24,822 bases of DNA from a virus: IMG/VR virus record IMGVR_UViG_3300017923_000011, positions 1 through 24,822 of that record. One strand, written 5' to 3'. Under the pieces are notes generated by a model. It was not told where the DNA came from. It made no database searches and saw only the letters and a program-made list of their open reading frames with translations. This document shows, one piece after another, positions 4,801 through 21,653 of the stretch (position 1 is the first letter of the stretch; each line of letters begins with the position of its first letter). The translations under genes were made by a program, and so were the position numbers.

Positions 4801-7684
4801 ATGAAGATACTTTCAATAGATATTGAAACCTTCTCGGATGTAGATCTAAGAAAGTGTGGTGTTTACCGCTATACTGATAGCCCAAAATTCGACATCCTGC
4901 TGTTATCCTACAGCATAGATGAAGGTTCGGTAGAACTAATTGATTTGACTAGTGGGGAAGAGATACCGGAGAAGATAATAGAAGCTGTTCTCAGTAGTAA
5001 TGTTATCAAAACAGCCTTCAATGCAAACTTTGAAAGGGTAGCTCTTATGAAATACCTAAGCAAACTACTTCAAAAAGAGATTTATCTAGACCCATCTTCA
5101 TGGAGGTGCAGCGAGGTTCAGGCGGCAATGCTTGGACTTCCTCTTCATCTTGAGGGAGTTGCCAAGGTCCTAAGTCTTGATGCACAGAAGATGTCTGAAG
5201 GAAAGACCCTTATAAGATACTTCTGTCTTCCATGCAAAGCAACTGCAGCTAATGGCGGAAGATCCAGAAACCTTCCCTCGGATGCACCGGACAAGTGGGA
5301 CCTGTTTAAACAGTACAACATCAGAGATGTGGAAGTGGAACTTGAAATCAGAAAGAAGATTAAAGACTTTCCAATACCAAAATCAGAACAGATCCTCTAC
5401 GAACTGGACCAACGAATCAACGACAGAGGAATAAAAGCTGATATGACATTAGTTGATGAAGCAATATCCTGTGATAGACAGTTTACGGTAGCAGCTACAG
5501 AAAGAGCATATGAACTTACAGGACTTGAAAATCCAAACTCAGTATCCCAGCTAAAGGATTGGTTGTCAGAACGGGGTGTGGAAGTAGAGAGTCTGTCTAA
5601 GAAGAATGTTAGGGAGCTGGTTGATGAAACAGATGGAGAAGTGGAAGAAGCCCTTAAACTGAGGCTTCTGATGGCTAAAACCAGTGTTAGAAAGTACGAG
5701 GCTATTGAAAGGGCAGTTTGTTCTGACGGAAGAGTTCACGGACTGTTTCAATTCTACGGGGCCAATCGTACAGGGAGGTGGGCCCGGCAGATTGGTTCAG
5801 TTTCAAAATATCCCACAGAACCACCTTTTAGACCTTAAGCTTGCTAGAAATTTGGTGAAAGAAGGACGATTTGATGATTTACAGATGTTCTTTGGCAATA
5901 CCCCTGGTGTCCTATCAGAATTGATAAGGACCGCCTTTATTCCTAAAGAAGGTCATAGGTTTATAGTAGCAGATTTTTCAGCCATAGAAGCAAGGGTACT
6001 GTCCTGGCTTGCTAAAGAAAAGTGGAGGATAGAAGTGTTTAAGTCCCACGGTAAGATTTACGAGGCTTCAGCATCTCAGATGTTCCACGTTCCTATAAAT
6101 GAAATAACTAAAAGCAGTCCGCTAAGACAGAAAGGTAAAATTTCGGAGCTGGCCTGCATTGCAGAAGGAGAACTTGTTCTAACAAATAGAGGACTAGTTC
6201 CAATTGAAAATGTAACTCTTAGCCATAAATTATGGGATGGAAACGAGTGGGTTAGTCATGAAGGTGTAATTTATAAAGGAAAGAAAGAGGTGATTGAATA
6301 TGGAGGACTTAAAGCAACAAGAGACCATCTCGTGTGGATCAAGGGGCAATCAAAGCCAGTACAATTTGAAAAAGCCGCCGCCAGCAGCTCACATCTCATA
6401 CAAACCGGAAATGGTGGAGAAAAGATACGGTTGGGTGAGAATTATCAGCCCAGAGAAGAGATGGAACAAGAAATGGAATCATTGTTATGTACTGACACAG
6501 TGCGAGGGCTGCAAGAGAATTCAGTGGAGTCATCTTGGAAATCTAAGGACTGGAAAATCAAAGGGATGTCAGAGTTGTTCACAGCCAATGCAAATTCCAA
6601 GGTGGTTAGATCGACGATTAACACAAGCAAGACAAAGATGTCAAAACCCAAACAATCCTCAATACCACAGATATGGAGAAAGAGGGATAGAGTTCAAATT
6701 CAACTCGATATTAGAAGCAGGACTTTGGATTCTTGCCAATGTGGAAAATGTGAAAAGAGAACTGGAGATGGATCGAATCAACAACGAGGGTCACTACGAA
6801 GAAGGAAATATAAGATTTGTAGAAAGAAGTATAAATCAAGCCAATCGGAAATTAACACTCTTAACCAGATGGAATCAGGAATACTGGCCTTATGCGAGAA
6901 GCGTTGTTTCAAGGAAACTAAGAGACGGTATGAACCGAGAACGAATCATAAAATCAGCAGAAGATGCAGTGATAAACAAAAGAAAGAACTGGCGATTAAT
7001 CGAGGCGAGGTTAGAGTTTATGACATACGAAATGCCGGAAGACATAATCGTTTCACCGTATCGGGAAAACTAGTACACAACTGCGGCTACGGCGGAGGAG
7101 TTGGAGCACTAAAGTCCATGGGTGCCTTGGAAATGGGAGTAGAAGAACATGAACTTCAAGGTCTTATTGATAACTGGCGAAGGGCTAATTCAAATATAGT
7201 AAATTTCTGGTGGAAAGTGGACAAGGCAGCTATTAAGGCGGTTAAAGAAAGAACCAAAACAAAGACCCATGGGATTATATTCACATATAAAAGGGGCATG
7301 CTTTTCGTAACCCTGCCTTCAGGAAGAGACCTGGTATATGTAAAGCCTAAGCTTATGCTTAACAAATTTGGAAGAGAAGGACTCACCTACGAAGGAATAG
7401 GAACCAATAGAAGGTGGGAGAGAATTGAAACCTACGGACCTAAGATAGTAGAAAACATAGTTCAGGCCGCATCAAGAGACCTATTATCTGAAGCTATGAT
7501 TAGACTTGATAAGGCTGGATTTTCAATAGTTGCTCATGTACATGATGAGATAATATGTGAAGCTCCAACAGGAAAGTCCAGTGTAGAGGAAGTGTGTAAA
7601 ATCATGAGCGAGAGTCCTAAATGGTCTGAAGGACTGCCTCTGGATGCAGATGGATATGAATGTGAGTTCTACAAGAAGGATTAA
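4801..7684 (+). CDS. Family A DNA polymerase with 3'-5' exonuclease, intein-interrupted and with one apparent base insertion
   Basis: Phage replicative DNA polymerase. Exonuclease motifs: SIDIETFSD (residues 4-12), AFNANFERVAL and YNIRDVEVELEI. Polymerase motif A is VADFSAIEARVLSWLA; motif C is VAHVHDEIICE. The first frame ends at 5838, but the family sequence RTGRWA-GRLVQFQN is restored if one C of the run 5783-5785 is removed. Downstream the phase is that of 5684-7684. The corrected precursor is 960 residues. Removing the 309-residue intein leaves 651, the usual size for this family. The intein sits inside motif B (O helix), between SELA and CGYGGG, so the enzyme should be inactive until splicing. 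Start ATG 4801 has AGAAAGGTG upstream. The frame break may be a sequencing error, since the rest of the gene looks intact. Confidence 0.88.
6155..7081 (+). other. Intein in polymerase motif B (309 residues)
   Basis: Cys1 (TGC 6155-6157) begins CIAEGELVLTNRGLVP, a splicing block A. Block B has the T-x-x-H signature in KATRDHLVW (intein residues about 54-61). Near the end, VRVYDIRNAGRHNRFTVSG is block F, and LVHN followed by Cys (TGC 7082-7084) is block G with the usual terminal His-Asn and +1 Cys. All residues expected for a class 1 cis-splicing intein are present. The central ~200 residues in this frame (about 6380-7000) are Lys/Arg/Gln/Ser-rich and look like an out-of-frame translation. The real protein in that stretch is an HNH endonuclease one frame over. 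Confidence 0.9.
6300..7073 (+). CDS. HNH homing endonuclease nested in the intein in an alternative frame
   Basis: Frame +1 relative to the intein, 257 residues from ATG 6300, which has AGAGGTG 7 bases upstream. A second ATG at 6411 lies just before the recognisable domain but has a weak site. The N-terminal domain is a zinc ribbon: RYGWVRIIS, CEGC and GCQSCSQ. The endonuclease core contains ARQRCQNPNNPQYHRYGERG, then LEMDRINNEGHYEEGNIRF and NQANRKL, the pattern of the phage DRIDNDGHYEPGN-type HNH homing enzymes. The C-terminus (about 60 residues) is basic and ends at TAG 7071-7073, overlapping intein block F. It probably cuts intein-free polymerase genes to spread the intein. Expression could be by internal initiation or by frameshifting; the window cannot say which. 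Confidence 0.85.
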   Translation: MEDLKQQETISCGSRGNQSQYNLKKPPPAAHISYKPEMVEKRYGWVRIISPEKRWNKKWNHCYVLTQCEGCKRIQWSHLGNLRTGKSKGCQSCSQPMQIPRWLDRRLTQARQRCQNPNNPQYHRYGERGIEFKFNSILEAGLWILANVENVKRELEMDRINNEGHYEEGNIRFVERSINQANRKLTLLTRWNQEYWPYARSVVSRKLRDGMNRERIIKSAEDAVINKRKNWRLIEARLEFMTYEMPEDIIVSPYREN

Positions 7685-13681: not shown

Positions 13682-14443
13682 ATGTGTCTTGATTATCAAC
13701 AATGGATAAGAATTGAAAACTGTATTTTAAAAGACGAAAATTATAAAAAAGATGATTTGTTGAAAGAACTCGAGAGCCATAAGAGTGTTCTTCGATTAGA
13801 TGCTAAATATTTTAGAGCTAGATTAATCACTAAATCAAACGAGAATAAAATGAATAAATTTATGAGTGATGATAAGTATTTTGGTTTTCCTGCTTCTGGA
13901 TGTGGTGCACCGAATCCTGAGAATGAGATTAAACCAGGTCGATGCAATAGAGAAAATGAATCAGTACTCTATTTAGCGGAAGATAAATATACAGCTTTAG
14001 CTGAAGTGAGACCTGGGAAACGACAAAGAGTAAACATTGCTGAATTTAAGCTAAAAAGAGAAGCGAGAGTAATAGATATCATTTATAATGATTCGAACGA
14101 TCCGAATTCATTGTTTACTTGGATAGCTTTTTACTTTTACATTGTTTACAACGATAATGAAGAATATTATAAAATAACCCAGCATATTGCACAGATTATA
14201 AAAGAAGCTGGTTATGATGGGATAAGATTTAGTAGCTCGCTATCAGCAAATGGAATGAATATAGTTTTGTTTGATATAGAATCGGGAGAATGTTTGAATT
14301 CAAAAGTTTACCAGACAATATCATTATTGCATTATGCTGAAGAGCAAATACCAAGAGAAAACAATGAAAAACTATTACCAAGATCTATTACAAATAAATT
14401 TTCAAATAATCAAATAAATTGGTTCTTAGATCAATTCAATTAA
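13682..14443 (+). CDS. RES-domain protein (possible NAD+-consuming toxin-like cargo)
   Basis: 253 residues, start ATG 13682 with AAGGAGTAATC upstream. The RES signature is clear: FRARL (Arg, residues 44-48), PGRCNRENESVLYLAED, then YTALAEVRPG (Glu near 108), and a later SSSLSANGMNIVLF containing Ser/Asn. In characterised RES proteins these residues bind and degrade NAD+. A long C-terminal extension (after about residue 215) is not part of the domain. No Xre-type antitoxin gene adjoins, so it is not a standard Xre-RES pair. It lies between two terminators, AT-rich and isolated, as expected for a moron that is expressed independently. A defence or exclusion role is inference. Confidence 0.82.
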   Translation: MCLDYQQWIRIENCILKDENYKKDDLLKELESHKSVLRLDAKYFRARLITKSNENKMNKFMSDDKYFGFPASGCGAPNPENEIKPGRCNRENESVLYLAEDKYTALAEVRPGKRQRVNIAEFKLKREARVIDIIYNDSNDPNSLFTWIAFYFYIVYNDNEEYYKITQHIAQIIKEAGYDGIRFSSSLSANGMNIVLFDIESGECLNSKVYQTISLLHYAEEQIPRENNEKLLPRSITNKFSNNQINWFLDQFN

Positions 14444-17156: not shown

Positions 17157-17187
17157 TTGATAATTATCCCCTTTAGAGTGATATATG
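17157..17187 (+). promoter_or_regulatory. Amidoligase-module promoter, copy 1
   Basis: TTGATA (17157-17162), 19 bp, then TATATG (17182-17187) with TG one base upstream (extended -10). The spacer ends in CTTTAGAGTGA. It drives the amidoligase gene. Confidence 0.7.
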
Positions 17188-17231: not shown

Positions 17232-18155
17232 ATGGAAAACAAGGAATTTTTAAAAAGCAGATTTGGAATAGAAATAGAAATGACGGGAATCAAAAGAAGA
17301 AAGGCAGCAAAGATAGTAGCAGAACACTTAGGTGGAGAGGTAGAGGAACTTCACGATTACTACGGAACCTTTAAAATAGAAGGACCGGACGGAAGAATAT
17401 GGAAAATAATGTACGACGGAAGCATTTACAACCAGAGAAAATATGGAGGGCAGAAGGTTTCAGCATCAAAAGAATACAGCGTAGAGTTGGTAAGCCCCAT
17501 ACTGACTTACGAAAAAGACATGAAGGACCTTCAGGAGATGGTGAGAAAACTTAGAAAGGCCGGAGCCTTTTCAGAAAAACAAAACTGCACCGGCATCCAC
17601 ATCCACCTTGACGGACTGGAACACACTCCAAGATCCTTAAGAAACTTTATAAACATCATTTACTCAAGAAACGACCTTTTATACGAAGCCTTGCAGATAG
17701 AACAAAGAAGGATGAACTACTGCAAAAAGATGGATAAGAGCTTAGTAGAAAGAATGAACAAGGTAAAACCCACAAGCTTCAGACAGATAGAAGACATATG
17801 GTACAGAGGATACAGCGACAGAAGAGAAAGACACTACCATCAAAGCAGATACCACTTTTTAAACCTTCACAGCTTTTTCAACGGATGCGGTACGGTAGAA
17901 CTTAGAGGCTTCAACGGAACCCTCCATGCAGGAAAGATCAGAAGCTTTGTAGTACTAGCCTTAGGGATGAACCACCAGGCCTTAACCCAAAAGAGCGCCA
18001 GCAGTAAGAAACCTCAGATTGAAAACCCTAAGTTTTCCATGAGAACCTGGCTTAACAGAATCGGCTTCATAGGAAAAGACTTTAAAAACTGCCGAGAACA
18101 CCTTTGCAAGCATCTTGAGGGAAGCGCAGCCTGGAGATTTCCAAGAGCCGCATAG
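17232..18155 (+). CDS. Phage amidoligase-family enzyme (ATP-grasp/COOH-NH2 ligase type)
   Basis: 307 residues. ATG 17232 (GAAAGGGG upstream) is chosen over an in-frame start at 17157, which falls inside the promoter. RFGIEIEMTG at the N-terminus, the conserved Asp in IMYDGSIY, SVELVSPILTY, and NCTGIHIHLDGLEHTPR (metal-binding His) are standard amidoligase signatures. TVELRGFNGTLHAGKIRSF closes the catalytic domain. The family forms amide bonds between a carboxylate and an amine. After about residue 262 a separate domain follows (NPKFSMRTWLNRIG ... HLEGSAAWR) that recurs in the protein at 19556-20320. A gamma-glutamylcyclotransferase gene follows, a classic partner. Substrate unknown. Confidence 0.88.
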   Translation: MENKEFLKSRFGIEIEMTGIKRRKAAKIVAEHLGGEVEELHDYYGTFKIEGPDGRIWKIMYDGSIYNQRKYGGQKVSASKEYSVELVSPILTYEKDMKDLQEMVRKLRKAGAFSEKQNCTGIHIHLDGLEHTPRSLRNFINIIYSRNDLLYEALQIEQRRMNYCKKMDKSLVERMNKVKPTSFRQIEDIWYRGYSDRRERHYHQSRYHFLNLHSFFNGCGTVELRGFNGTLHAGKIRSFVVLALGMNHQALTQKSASSKKPQIENPKFSMRTWLNRIGFIGKDFKNCREHLCKHLEGSAAWRFPRAA

Positions 18156-18157
18156 TT

Positions 18158-18270
18158 AAGGCGGCTGAAAGCCACATAGGGGGAAACCCCTCTTAAGTCG
18201 GTAGAATGGATTGCCAATCAAGTTATAAAGGCACACAGGGAAAGCTGAAGGGGTAAAACCGCCCTTCAAG
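18158..18270 (+). ncRNA. Structured RNA candidate between amidoligase and GGCT genes
   Basis: The 131-bp gap is GC-rich and full of short hairpins: GGCT-GAA-AGCC (18163-18173), AGGGG-GAAA-CCCCT with a GNRA loop (18178-18191), GATT-GCC-AATC (18209-18219), and TGAAGGG/CCCTTCA (18246-18252 with 18262-18268). GGCGG (18160-18164) can pair with CCGCC (18259-18263), closing the whole element but competing with hairpins 1 and 4. No ORF or T tract is present. The GGCT start codon is 16 bases downstream. It may be a cis-regulatory leader, a processing site or a trans-acting RNA. Confidence 0.55.
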
Positions 18271-18286
18271 AAAGGATAGAGTAAAG

Positions 18287-18751
18287 ATGAAAGAAGAAAA
18301 AAGATTAAACATAGCCTACGGATCAAACCTTAATTTACAGCAGATAGCTGTGAGATGTCCGACTGCAAAGGTTTATGGAAAAGGAATTTTAAAAGGATAT
18401 AGACTTTTGTTTAAAGGTCAGAAGAACGGTGCCTACTGCACAGTAGAAAAGAAGAAAGGTGGAGAAGTTCCTGTAATAGTCTGGGAGCTTCAACCGGAAG
18501 ATGAAAGAGCCCTTGATTATTACGAGGGATTCCCTAGATTTTATGACAAGAAAGATGTGAAGGTAACTCTTGAAAATGGTAAGACAATTACAGCCATGGT
18601 GTATATTATGACTGACAAGGTACTCGACAGGATACATCTGAACCTGCCGAGCAAAGCTTATCTGGATACAGTGAAAAAAGGATATGAAGCTGCAGGATTT
18701 GATTTGAAATTTATAGACGAAGCTCTCGAGATAAGCGATAAAGCTATTTAG
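18287..18751 (+). CDS. Gamma-glutamylcyclotransferase-family protein (GGCT/AIG2 fold)
   Basis: 154 residues, start ATG 18287 with AAAGGA upstream. IAYGSNL (residues 9-15) is the substrate loop of the GGCT/AIG2 fold. ERALDYYEGFPRFYDKKDV carries the catalytic Glu (E80), and the C-terminus has LPSKAYLDTVKKGYEAAGFD. The family releases 5-oxoproline from gamma-glutamyl-amine bonds, so it could reverse or trim bonds made by the amidoligase encoded just upstream. It is probably in the same transcript, separated by the structured RNA candidate. Confidence 0.9.
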   Translation: MKEEKRLNIAYGSNLNLQQIAVRCPTAKVYGKGILKGYRLLFKGQKNGAYCTVEKKKGGEVPVIVWELQPEDERALDYYEGFPRFYDKKDVKVTLENGKTITAMVYIMTDKVLDRIHLNLPSKAYLDTVKKGYEAAGFDLKFIDEALEISDKAI

Positions 18752-18809: not shown

Positions 18810-18840
18810 TTGCAATTATGTGCTTTTAGAGTGATATATA
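18810..18840 (+). promoter_or_regulatory. Amidoligase-module promoter, copy 2
   Basis: TTGCAA (18810-18815), 19 bp, TATATA (18835-18840) with extended TG. The spacer ends CTTTTAGAGTGA. It faces the gene at 18880. Confidence 0.7.
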
Positions 18841-19493: not shown

Positions 19494-19524
19494 TTGCTAT
19501 ATTCTGTGTTTAGAGTGATATATA
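19494..19524 (+). promoter_or_regulatory. Amidoligase-module promoter, copy 3
   Basis: TTGCTA (19494-19499), 19 bp, TATATA (19519-19524) with extended TG. The spacer ends GTTTAGAGTGA. It faces the gene at 19556. Confidence 0.7.
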
Positions 19525-19555: not shown

Positions 19556-20320
19556 ATGGATCGAAAAGAAATGATTAAAAAACTAGAAGAGCATCTCGGT
19601 GTAGAACCCAGATATTTAGGAGTTCCAACTTTTAATTATGAAATCAGAACGGCTAATGAAATATTCACTATCGACAGGCTTGGAAGTATTACAAAAGAAG
19701 ATGGAGAAGCAGTAACTATGGAAGAGATAATAAATAAACCTGAGGCAGAAGAAAGCAATGTTAGAGCAGGAAACAGCATCTTAACCAATCAAGAACAGGG
19801 TAAACTTAAAATTAAAATAGACATGAAAGATCATTCGGCTGACAGCATTAAGAACATTATTAACATGCTTTACAGCAAGCAGCATTTAATTATGATGTCC
19901 TTCCAGACTGAAGAATATTTCATTGATGATGATTTTGCTGAGGAATTAAACAAAGAAGAGATAAATGGTTTAGAAGAATTAAAAGCAGCTATTGAAAAAC
20001 TCGGAAGAGATAGATGTCCAGGATTTAAGATTGACTTTGAACAGGAAATATTTACTTTCTATCTTAACGGATCAAGATTAAGTTCTGAAAGAGCTAAAGC
20101 CTTTAAAGACTTATGTTTCCTTATTTCAGAATATTCCAAGACCTTAAACTGGGCTTCATACAAGCAGGCCCAAAATGACAATCCAAAGTACGCCCTTAGA
20201 ACCTGGCTTATCCGCATAGGCATGAATGGGCCTAAGTACAAGGAAAGCAGGAGGACACTCCTTAAGCATCTGGAAGGCAGCAGTGCTTTTAGAAAGGTCG
20301 GTGATAAGGATGAAGCCTAA
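19556..20320 (+). CDS. Virulence-related-type protein sharing the amidoligase C-terminal domain
   Basis: 254 residues, GGGAGG before ATG 19556. The N-terminus MDRKEMIKKLEEHLGVEPRY with YLGVPTFNYEI is a recognisable clostridial phage family often called virulence-related. The middle (about 80-190) is mixed alpha/beta. The C-terminus (about residues 209-246), NPKYALRTWLIRIG to HLEGSSAFR, matches 22 of 38 positions in the amidoligase C-terminus at 18024-18137. The shared domain suggests the two proteins bind the same partner or substrate. The next gene start (20310) overlaps the stop. Confidence 0.75.
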   Translation: MDRKEMIKKLEEHLGVEPRYLGVPTFNYEIRTANEIFTIDRLGSITKEDGEAVTMEEIINKPEAEESNVRAGNSILTNQEQGKLKIKIDMKDHSADSIKNIINMLYSKQHLIMMSFQTEEYFIDDDFAEELNKEEINGLEELKAAIEKLGRDRCPGFKIDFEQEIFTFYLNGSRLSSERAKAFKDLCFLISEYSKTLNWASYKQAQNDNPKYALRTWLIRIGMNGPKYKESRRTLLKHLEGSSAFRKVGDKDEA

Positions 20321-21074: not shown

Positions 21075-21653
21075 CTACAAGAGTTGTAAGTTGTTATCAT
21101 CTAAATACAAATTAGTTTTAACAACTCCAAGTTTATTTTTAATGGCTATCCTAAGATATATTTCTCGATCATCTTTTCCAGTTAGTACGTAACCGCTGAA
21201 AAGAAGTAACTTTTGAGTTTCATCAATATCAAGATTCATAGCCAAACAAAGCTTTAAAATATAATTCATGGAAATATTGTCAATATTCTTTTTTTTATTT
21301 AATACCTTATTTAAAGTTGTATAATTAACATTAGCTCTTTCAGATAGTTCCTTTTGACTTAAGCCGGATTCTGAGAATAGTTTAATTAGTAGGTTATGAA
21401 AAGAATCTTTGTTTTTAAATTTTTCAGCATATAATTCTATGTAATCAACTAGTCTTTCAATAAAGCTTTGTTCCTGCATATATTTATATGCTTCTCTCAT
21501 ATTAACTTGATCGTATTCAACACCTTCGGCAGGTTTAATTTGAAACATAGGAGGATAAAAAACGAAGTCTTCCATTACAATATTAGAGCTTTTAAGAAAC
21601 TTATTTTCATATTTTTTCAAGGTTTCCTTTAATTTTGCAAGTTCATTTTTCAT
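21075..21653 (-). CDS. XRE-family HTH protein, minus strand
   Basis: 192 residues on the minus strand. The first 80 residues are helical and include KPAEGVEYDQVNMREAYKYM. The HTH lies at about residues 89-145: GLSQKELSERANVNYTTLNK with MNYILKLCLAMNLDIDE. The C-terminus has a short unassigned tail. The start ATG (21653-21651) overlaps the stop of the small upstream gene as ATGA, so translation is coupled. As the only minus-strand unit in the window, convergent to the phage genes, it is probably an independently expressed moron. It could repress the divergent promoter at 21844-21853. Confidence 0.85.
   Translation of the reverse strand: MKNELAKLKETLKKYENKFLKSSNIVMEDFVFYPPMFQIKPAEGVEYDQVNMREAYKYMQEQSFIERLVDYIELYAEKFKNKDSFHNLLIKLFSESGLSQKELSERANVNYTTLNKVLNKKKNIDNISMNYILKLCLAMNLDIDETQKLLLFSGYVLTGKDDREIYLRIAIKNKLGVVKTNLYLDDNNLQLL

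Follow-up and report, generated by a model that had tools for sequence, protein, structure and literature searches.

Translational-platform riboswitches and leaders occupy the 5' leader of the gene they control; their structure ends at the Shine-Dalgarno sequence (SD), and strands within it can mask the SD. Coupling and attenuation elements in polycistronic messages, as generally known, place a structure between the stop codon of a first gene and the SD of a second. Two other leader classes have short words in common with the RNA described here: T-box leaders, which contain GGUGGUA, and the c-di-GMP-I (GEMM) riboswitch, with the short look-alikes CACAGG.. and GGUAGG.

The present locus is the gap between two phage genes, encoding an amidoligase and a gamma-glutamyl cyclotransferase (GGCT), which appear to make and break, respectively, one type of bond. 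Its RNA combines features of the first two systems: a 5' leader position, structure running from the first gene's stop to the second gene's SD, and strands that can mask this SD. However, it lies between two cistrons of an apparent operon rather than at a transcript start; it matches no Rfam family; its SD masking is not conserved; and any ligand is hypothetical. Moreover, conservation of its sequence and fold goes far beyond that of usual coupling hairpins and extends across amidoligases about 41% identical. The T-box word is shared, but its GG bases sit in a helix (P1x, below) and vary with their partner (GGCGG, GUCGG, GUUGG). The gap RNA has no T-box Rfam hit, no Stem I, and no terminator, and its UGG changes with the P1x partner instead of forming an invariant UGGN bulge. 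The GEMM elements come in a different order, and the Rfam model was unmatched at any threshold tried. Both resemblances were judged to be sequence look-alikes only. Translational bypassing of the T4 gene 60 type, for which the conserved stop and a UUCG hairpin might speak, was set aside because GGCT has its own SD and start codon.

The window is the whole 24,822-nt stretch analysed (IMG/VR record IMGVR_UViG_3300017923_000011, positions 1 to 24,822). Its relevant features are as follows.

17172-17186, + strand: exactly repeated 15-nt motif TTTAGAGTGATATAT upstream of the amidoligase gene, a putative promoter or operator
17235-18155, + strand: amidoligase gene, upstream neighbour (PF12224, Pfam 2e-72; phrog_2443, PHROG 1e-97)
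18146-18166, + strand: H0, hairpin spanning the amidoligase stop, AGCCGC (18146-18151) with GCGGCT (18161-18166), read from the sequence
18171-18202, + strand: P1x, helix closing P2, of which the window keeps only GCC (18171-18173) with GGU (18200-18202)
18178-18191, + strand: P2 hairpin, AGGGG-GAAA-CCCCU, backed by covariation
18192-18206, + strand: conserved strand CUUAAG-NN-GGUAGAA, nearly invariant in 31 long-form copies, its core retained in the compact class
18205-18266, + strand: P5, a long arm closed by AAUGG (18205-18209) with CCCUU (18262-18266)
18210-18254, + strand: P3 and its loop within the P5 arm, long form only (P3 z -5.2)
18270-18277, + strand: SD of GGCT, GAAAGGAU, 3 nt after P5, read from the sequence
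18287-18751, + strand: GGCT gene, downstream neighbour (PF06094, Pfam 7.5e-15; phrog_2520, PHROG 2e-47)

A compact gap with structured RNA at 18158 to 18270 had been proposed by a sequence-only reading. The gap is indeed compact, bounded by the amidoligase stop codon (18153-18155) and the GGCT start (18287), and the element is there; its extent is wider, however, from the stop-codon hairpin (18146) to the GGCT SD (18277). The same reading had listed four hairpins, one with a perfect GAAA loop. That hairpin is present at 18178-18191, and as P2 it is kept in relatives; the other hairpins are not, and GGCTGAAAGCC is private to the window's neighbourhood. A GGCGG/CCGCC pairing had been thought to form a switch by competing with two of the hairpins. 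These strands can pair (18160-18164 with 18259-18263), but the covariation is marginal (z -2.1, -1.7), and outside the close clade the pairing is lost; the competition is not kept beyond close relatives.

The folding energy of the window copy is about that of dinucleotide shuffles (z 0.07 for 18150-18290; z -0.60 for 18158-18270). Thus the window sequence by itself is no proof of a fold, and folding energy was dropped as evidence for structure. The case rests instead on relatives, which fall into a long and a compact form.

Queries with the amidoligase and GGCT against the viral collection yielded about 70 contigs. In the window's clade and several more distant clades the gap measures 100-150 nt, and its core hardly varies: [CCACC]-hairpin-CUUAAG-NN-GGUAGAAGG ... 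GCCNACACAGG. Pattern and model searches of viral contigs and bacterial genomes added copies from Alkalibacterium, Vagococcus, Clostridium, Haloimpatiens, and Clostridia, with no genuine copy seen away from the amidoligase-GGCT locus; one covariance-model hit (L177) was judged a chance match. A covariance model trained on 16 copies, from which the window and its three nearest relatives (L002, L003, L063) were withheld, finds the window copy at 18162-18260 (41 bits, E 5.5e-8), a match that rests on sequence.

The window copy is of the long form, which has an additional conserved arm inside P5. It is diverged: P1x is reduced to GCC/GGU (four of five model pairs are non-standard), P5 contains one mismatch (relatives have AAGGG/CCCUU), and the P3 pairing is imperfect and partly non-standard. 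In relatives, P1x is CCACC(UU)/(AA)GGUGG with compensatory changes. The UAG stop (18153-18155) lies in the H0 loop, and H0 variants in relatives preserve the pairing. The P3 loop carries the near-invariant GGCACACAGG at 18230-18239, corresponding to ..GCCNACACAGG in relatives. Long-form P2 loops are mostly GAAA, GCAA, or GAGA.

Pairing was assessed by a swap test, which sets the energy of a strand's pairing with its true partner against that with partners taken from other copies. Since shuffling mates leaves relatedness in, sets of representatives are reported as well. Among 19 long-form representatives, P2 (z -4.5) and P3 (z -5.2) give clear values and P5 a weak one (z -2.1); P1x, which hardly varies there, shows no signal. 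Pair counts over 31 long-form copies agree with these results. Restricted to the 31 long-form cores, a phylogeny-aware covariation scan had too little power (best E 5.8), and the diverse compact class was therefore needed.

The compact form is far more widespread than the long form and accounts for the majority of loci sampled. Its core, CTTAAGSYGGTAGAAGG, matches at least 120 viral contigs. Among the matches listed were 100 new loci, 6 of them chance and 94 genuine; the amidoligase lies upstream in 92 of these 94 listed genuine matches, the other two ending at a contig edge, and GGCT lies downstream in 88. Pattern hits without an amidoligase (L142, L144, L146-L161 except L155, L157, and L158, L204, L220, L236, L249, L253, and L261) were rejected as chance matches, in coding sequence or unrelated places. 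A typical compact copy is CCACCUU..GACCGC-UUCG-GCGGUC-UU-AAGGUGG-UAG-AAGGG-UGAU-CCCUU-CGG-AAAGGAUGG. Five copies (L258, L267, L339, L340, L344) have a large GC-rich insert in the P5 loop, with P5 itself retained.

An unbiased search used compact-group amidoligase proteins and took the best 80 of 510 relatives. The element is present in 67 of 67 distinct amidoligase-GGCT gaps recovered by this amidoligase-only search, a figure that applies to compact-group amidoligases, the nearest relatives being those sampled. Within the 67, one copy was recovered by further search (L324), one has an atypical P2 (L355), and one is degenerate (L358).

Swap tests over 64 compact copies gave z -5.7 for P1x, -5.9 for P5, and -6.2 for H0, each tested as a whole region, and -12 for P2, a value inflated by the choice of its arms for pairing. 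With 18 representatives below 70% identity the values were P1x -2.7, P2 -5.9 (similarly inflated), P5 -3.6, and H0 -3.3; a control pair gave no signal. P2 of the long form exchanges A-U for G-C and C-G for G-C among relatives, and its swap test there gave z -7.5. Compensatory types in P1x include AAGGUGG/CCACCUU, UAGGUGG/CCACCUA, and UCGGUGG/CCACCGG. P5, present in 60 of the 64 copies, occurs as AAGGG/CCCUU, AGGAC/GUCCU, GGGCU/AGCCC, GGGGC/GCCCC, GGGGU/ACCCC, and AAGCA/UGCUU. Covariation across divergent members supports H0, P1x, P2, and P5, and the gap holds a genuine, conserved structured RNA. Collecting the gap from relatives, as the sequence-only reading had advised, revealed covarying helices and not a variable gap.

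These data also bear on whether the conservation might reside in DNA or protein. GC-rich inverted repeats conserved in mosaic phage genomes could mark a DNA-level element, such as a recombination seam or a cos-like or replication site, or else a coding remnant. However, the helices covary, the orientation is fixed, and no frame is kept. In 36 of 65 compact copies the P2 loop is UNCG, and each of the four bases occurs at N; loops of the UNCG and GNRA types belong to RNA and would not be preserved at a DNA site. Offsets from the stop codon and gap lengths are spread over all three frames, so the gap is not coding, and a coding remnant or leader peptide was ruled out because reading frames are not preserved. 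As a group, the DNA-level and coding explanations are disfavoured and very improbable.

Scans with Rfam 15 at curated gathering thresholds found no RNA-element match in the window, at nine further loci, or at eight compact-form loci, where the sole hit was a tRNA elsewhere than the element. Permissive scans gave sub-threshold, chance-level hits only. Full-text literature searches returned no paper linking an amidoligase to a structured RNA or riboswitch, and broader searching no description of this RNA. A catalogue of candidate RNAs from the human microbiome (PMC8040213) has a main text without these genes; its supplementary tables may hold an unnamed entry. Two papers on prophages carrying both genes (PMC11318856, PMC11253131) contain passages that cite Iyer et al. 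2009 for a proposed role of the amidoligase in cell-wall modification; those passages make no mention of an RNA. The earlier suggestion of an undescribed structured RNA is thereby borne out: with no Rfam 15 match, covarying helices, and a tie to the amidoligase-GGCT pair, the family is apparently undescribed.

The family is also old. In a tree of 60 amidoligases, rooted at the midpoint only, the RNA occurs on both sides of the deepest split, the far members being about 41% identical to the window protein. It is absent only from one clade (L030, L032, L033, L038, L039, L041, L045, L046, L049, L050), where a model search found no match and a short stretch bearing an AAGGAGG-type SD separates the genes. 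The nearest relatives of this clade (L180, L205, L279) keep the compact form. Loss of the RNA within the clade would be the simplest reading. The RNA is older and better conserved than the surrounding proteins.

What, then, does it do? The ancient fold, in the order H0, P1x, P2, UAG, P5, keeps a fixed place and ends about 3 nt before the SD of the next gene, an AAAGG-type sequence at the same place in most relatives. We put roughly even confidence in the gap RNA acting in cis, between the two cistrons, as the leader of the downstream gene in an amidoligase-GGCT operon. Because the element ends some 3 nt before the GGCT SD in an apparent two-gene operon, translational control of the second gene is the best reading, and the element most likely sets the level of GGCT translation. 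Among the findings that speak against a leader, the RNA-less clade gets by with its AAGGAGG SD, and in the window itself P1x is largely broken and P5 mismatched.

The operon is suggested by the 15-nt motif, TTTAGAGTGATATAT. The window contains three exact copies (17172-17186, 18825-18839, 19509-19523), versus 0.18 expected at up to two mismatches, located about 33-50 nt upstream of three gene starts. Corresponding positions in well over 100 related loci also carry the motif, which probably serves as a phage promoter or operator for the amidoligase-RNA-GGCT unit. Since it precedes the amidoligase and recurs after GGCT (18825-18839), the RNA probably lies inside a two-gene transcript. A second amidoligase-like ORF (19556-20320; phrog_2443, E 1e-47; no Pfam hit) has no copy of the RNA motif after it.

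How a leader would act can be sketched from its strands. The element would tune initiation of GGCT translation. The CCUU strands (the P1x 5' strand and the P5 3' strand) could mask the SD; a decoy AAGG strand would hold each CCUU strand and so leave the SD open. The amidoligase stop is where H0 begins (in one subgroup, a long P0 helix), and a ribosome terminating there may remodel the element, coupling GGCT output to amidoligase translation. This remodelling is proposed on account of H0 at the stop codon and of an alternative pairing in three loci (L287, L311, L318), in which the post-stop sequence forms about 13-14 bp with the loop and 3' strand of P5, a pairing incompatible with P5 itself. 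That subgroup is the clearest candidate for a two-state element.

Computed structures give a mixed picture. Predicted folds of the full gap often omit P5 (mean probability 0.17, rising to 0.70 without the 5' part), and the SD is mostly unpaired (mean 0.74 compact, 0.70 long). The anti-SD strand could mask the SD in 51 of 64 copies. Since this pairing does not covary (z about +1) and is lost in 12 copies that retain P5, masking is a possibility, not a conserved feature, and the anti-SD/SD pairing is unsupported as a conserved switch. A further scheme would be a phage riboswitch or stop-codon-coupled switch of a new class, balancing the bond-making and bond-breaking enzymes, in which three AAGG strands (post-stop, the P5 5' strand, and the real SD) compete for one CCUU. 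We consider this scheme unlikely.

Another candidate is a metabolite riboswitch: the P5/P3 arm of long-form copies would bind a gamma-glutamyl compound or something related to it, and so open or close access to the GGCT SD. The near-invariant apical loop of that arm (..AAAGCCNACACAGGC..), carried on a helix whose 3' strand could pair with the SD, and the enzymatic nature of the controlled gene would fit. However, the compact form lacks this loop and keeps hardly any of the conserved unpaired core usual in metabolite aptamers; SD masking is not conserved; and known riboswitches are unmatched. Such sensing is rather improbable.

In some loci without GGCT, the element is likewise positioned on the following gene's ribosome-binding site: that of a DUF4314-like gene in four of the listed matches (L179, L189, L191, L208), and of another gene in L354. 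In one contig (L182) the sequence breaks off inside a DUF4314-like gene. A second, reduced copy in L278 precedes a second GGCT gene, which does not follow the amidoligase. Such placement fits control in cis over how the second gene is translated.

These loci bear on a protein-binding control site, at which the amidoligase, GGCT, or another phage or host protein would bind P1x-P2-UAG-P5 to repress or activate the second gene. With few hairpins in linear order, a conserved strand (UUAAGGUGGUAGAAGG), and little conserved unpaired sequence, the element resembles many protein-binding leaders, and it is located at a ribosome-binding site. Yet the candidate binder is only hypothetical, and persistence of the element where another gene replaces GGCT speaks against GGCT autoregulation; we regard a protein site as doubtful. 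The same loci weigh on the idea that the element serves RNA processing or stability, or is released from the operon transcript as a small RNA of its own. Stable hairpins between cistrons with separate fates are a common theme, and the core sequence is conserved; but the spacing to the next SD is fixed even when the next gene changes, and no terminator (GC hairpin plus U run) was found in the gap on the + strand. Processing is quite unlikely, and a translational leader remains the preferred reading.

With this RNA, a very common group of phages from the human gut (several of its records are labelled Ca. Heliusvirales) gains an apparently undescribed family. The RNA points to a need for balance between two apparently opposed enzymes, and offers a way into what the amidoligase-GGCT pair does for the phage. 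It corrects annotation as well: in database records, short false genes or an over-long GGCT are placed across the RNA. Named gut-phage records carry the compact RNA. For example, a false 30-residue gene (CDS0069) is annotated over it in Terrisporobacter phage TPDSL_ph1 (L363, 2730-2822), and the annotated GGCT begins inside it in Dorea phage NatCom_31361 (L364, 2487-2550). TPDSL_ph1 is a prophage reported active in a cultured bacterium, so the RNA is open to testing.

Elsewhere in the window, a family A DNA polymerase ORF (5684-7684) contains an intein-like insert (CIAEGELVLTNRG ... GKLVHN-C), overlapped in another frame by a long ORF (6294-7073) that looks by eye like an HNH-type endonuclease and has no Pfam hit. 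The polymerase frame (4801-5838, 5684-7684) breaks near 5830 and resumes in another, reflecting a frameshift or a sequencing or assembly error. RES-domain proteins are often the toxin of a toxin-antitoxin pair; one is encoded at 13682-14443 (PF08808), and the only Cro/C1-type helix-turn-helix gene noted is distant, at 21075-21653.
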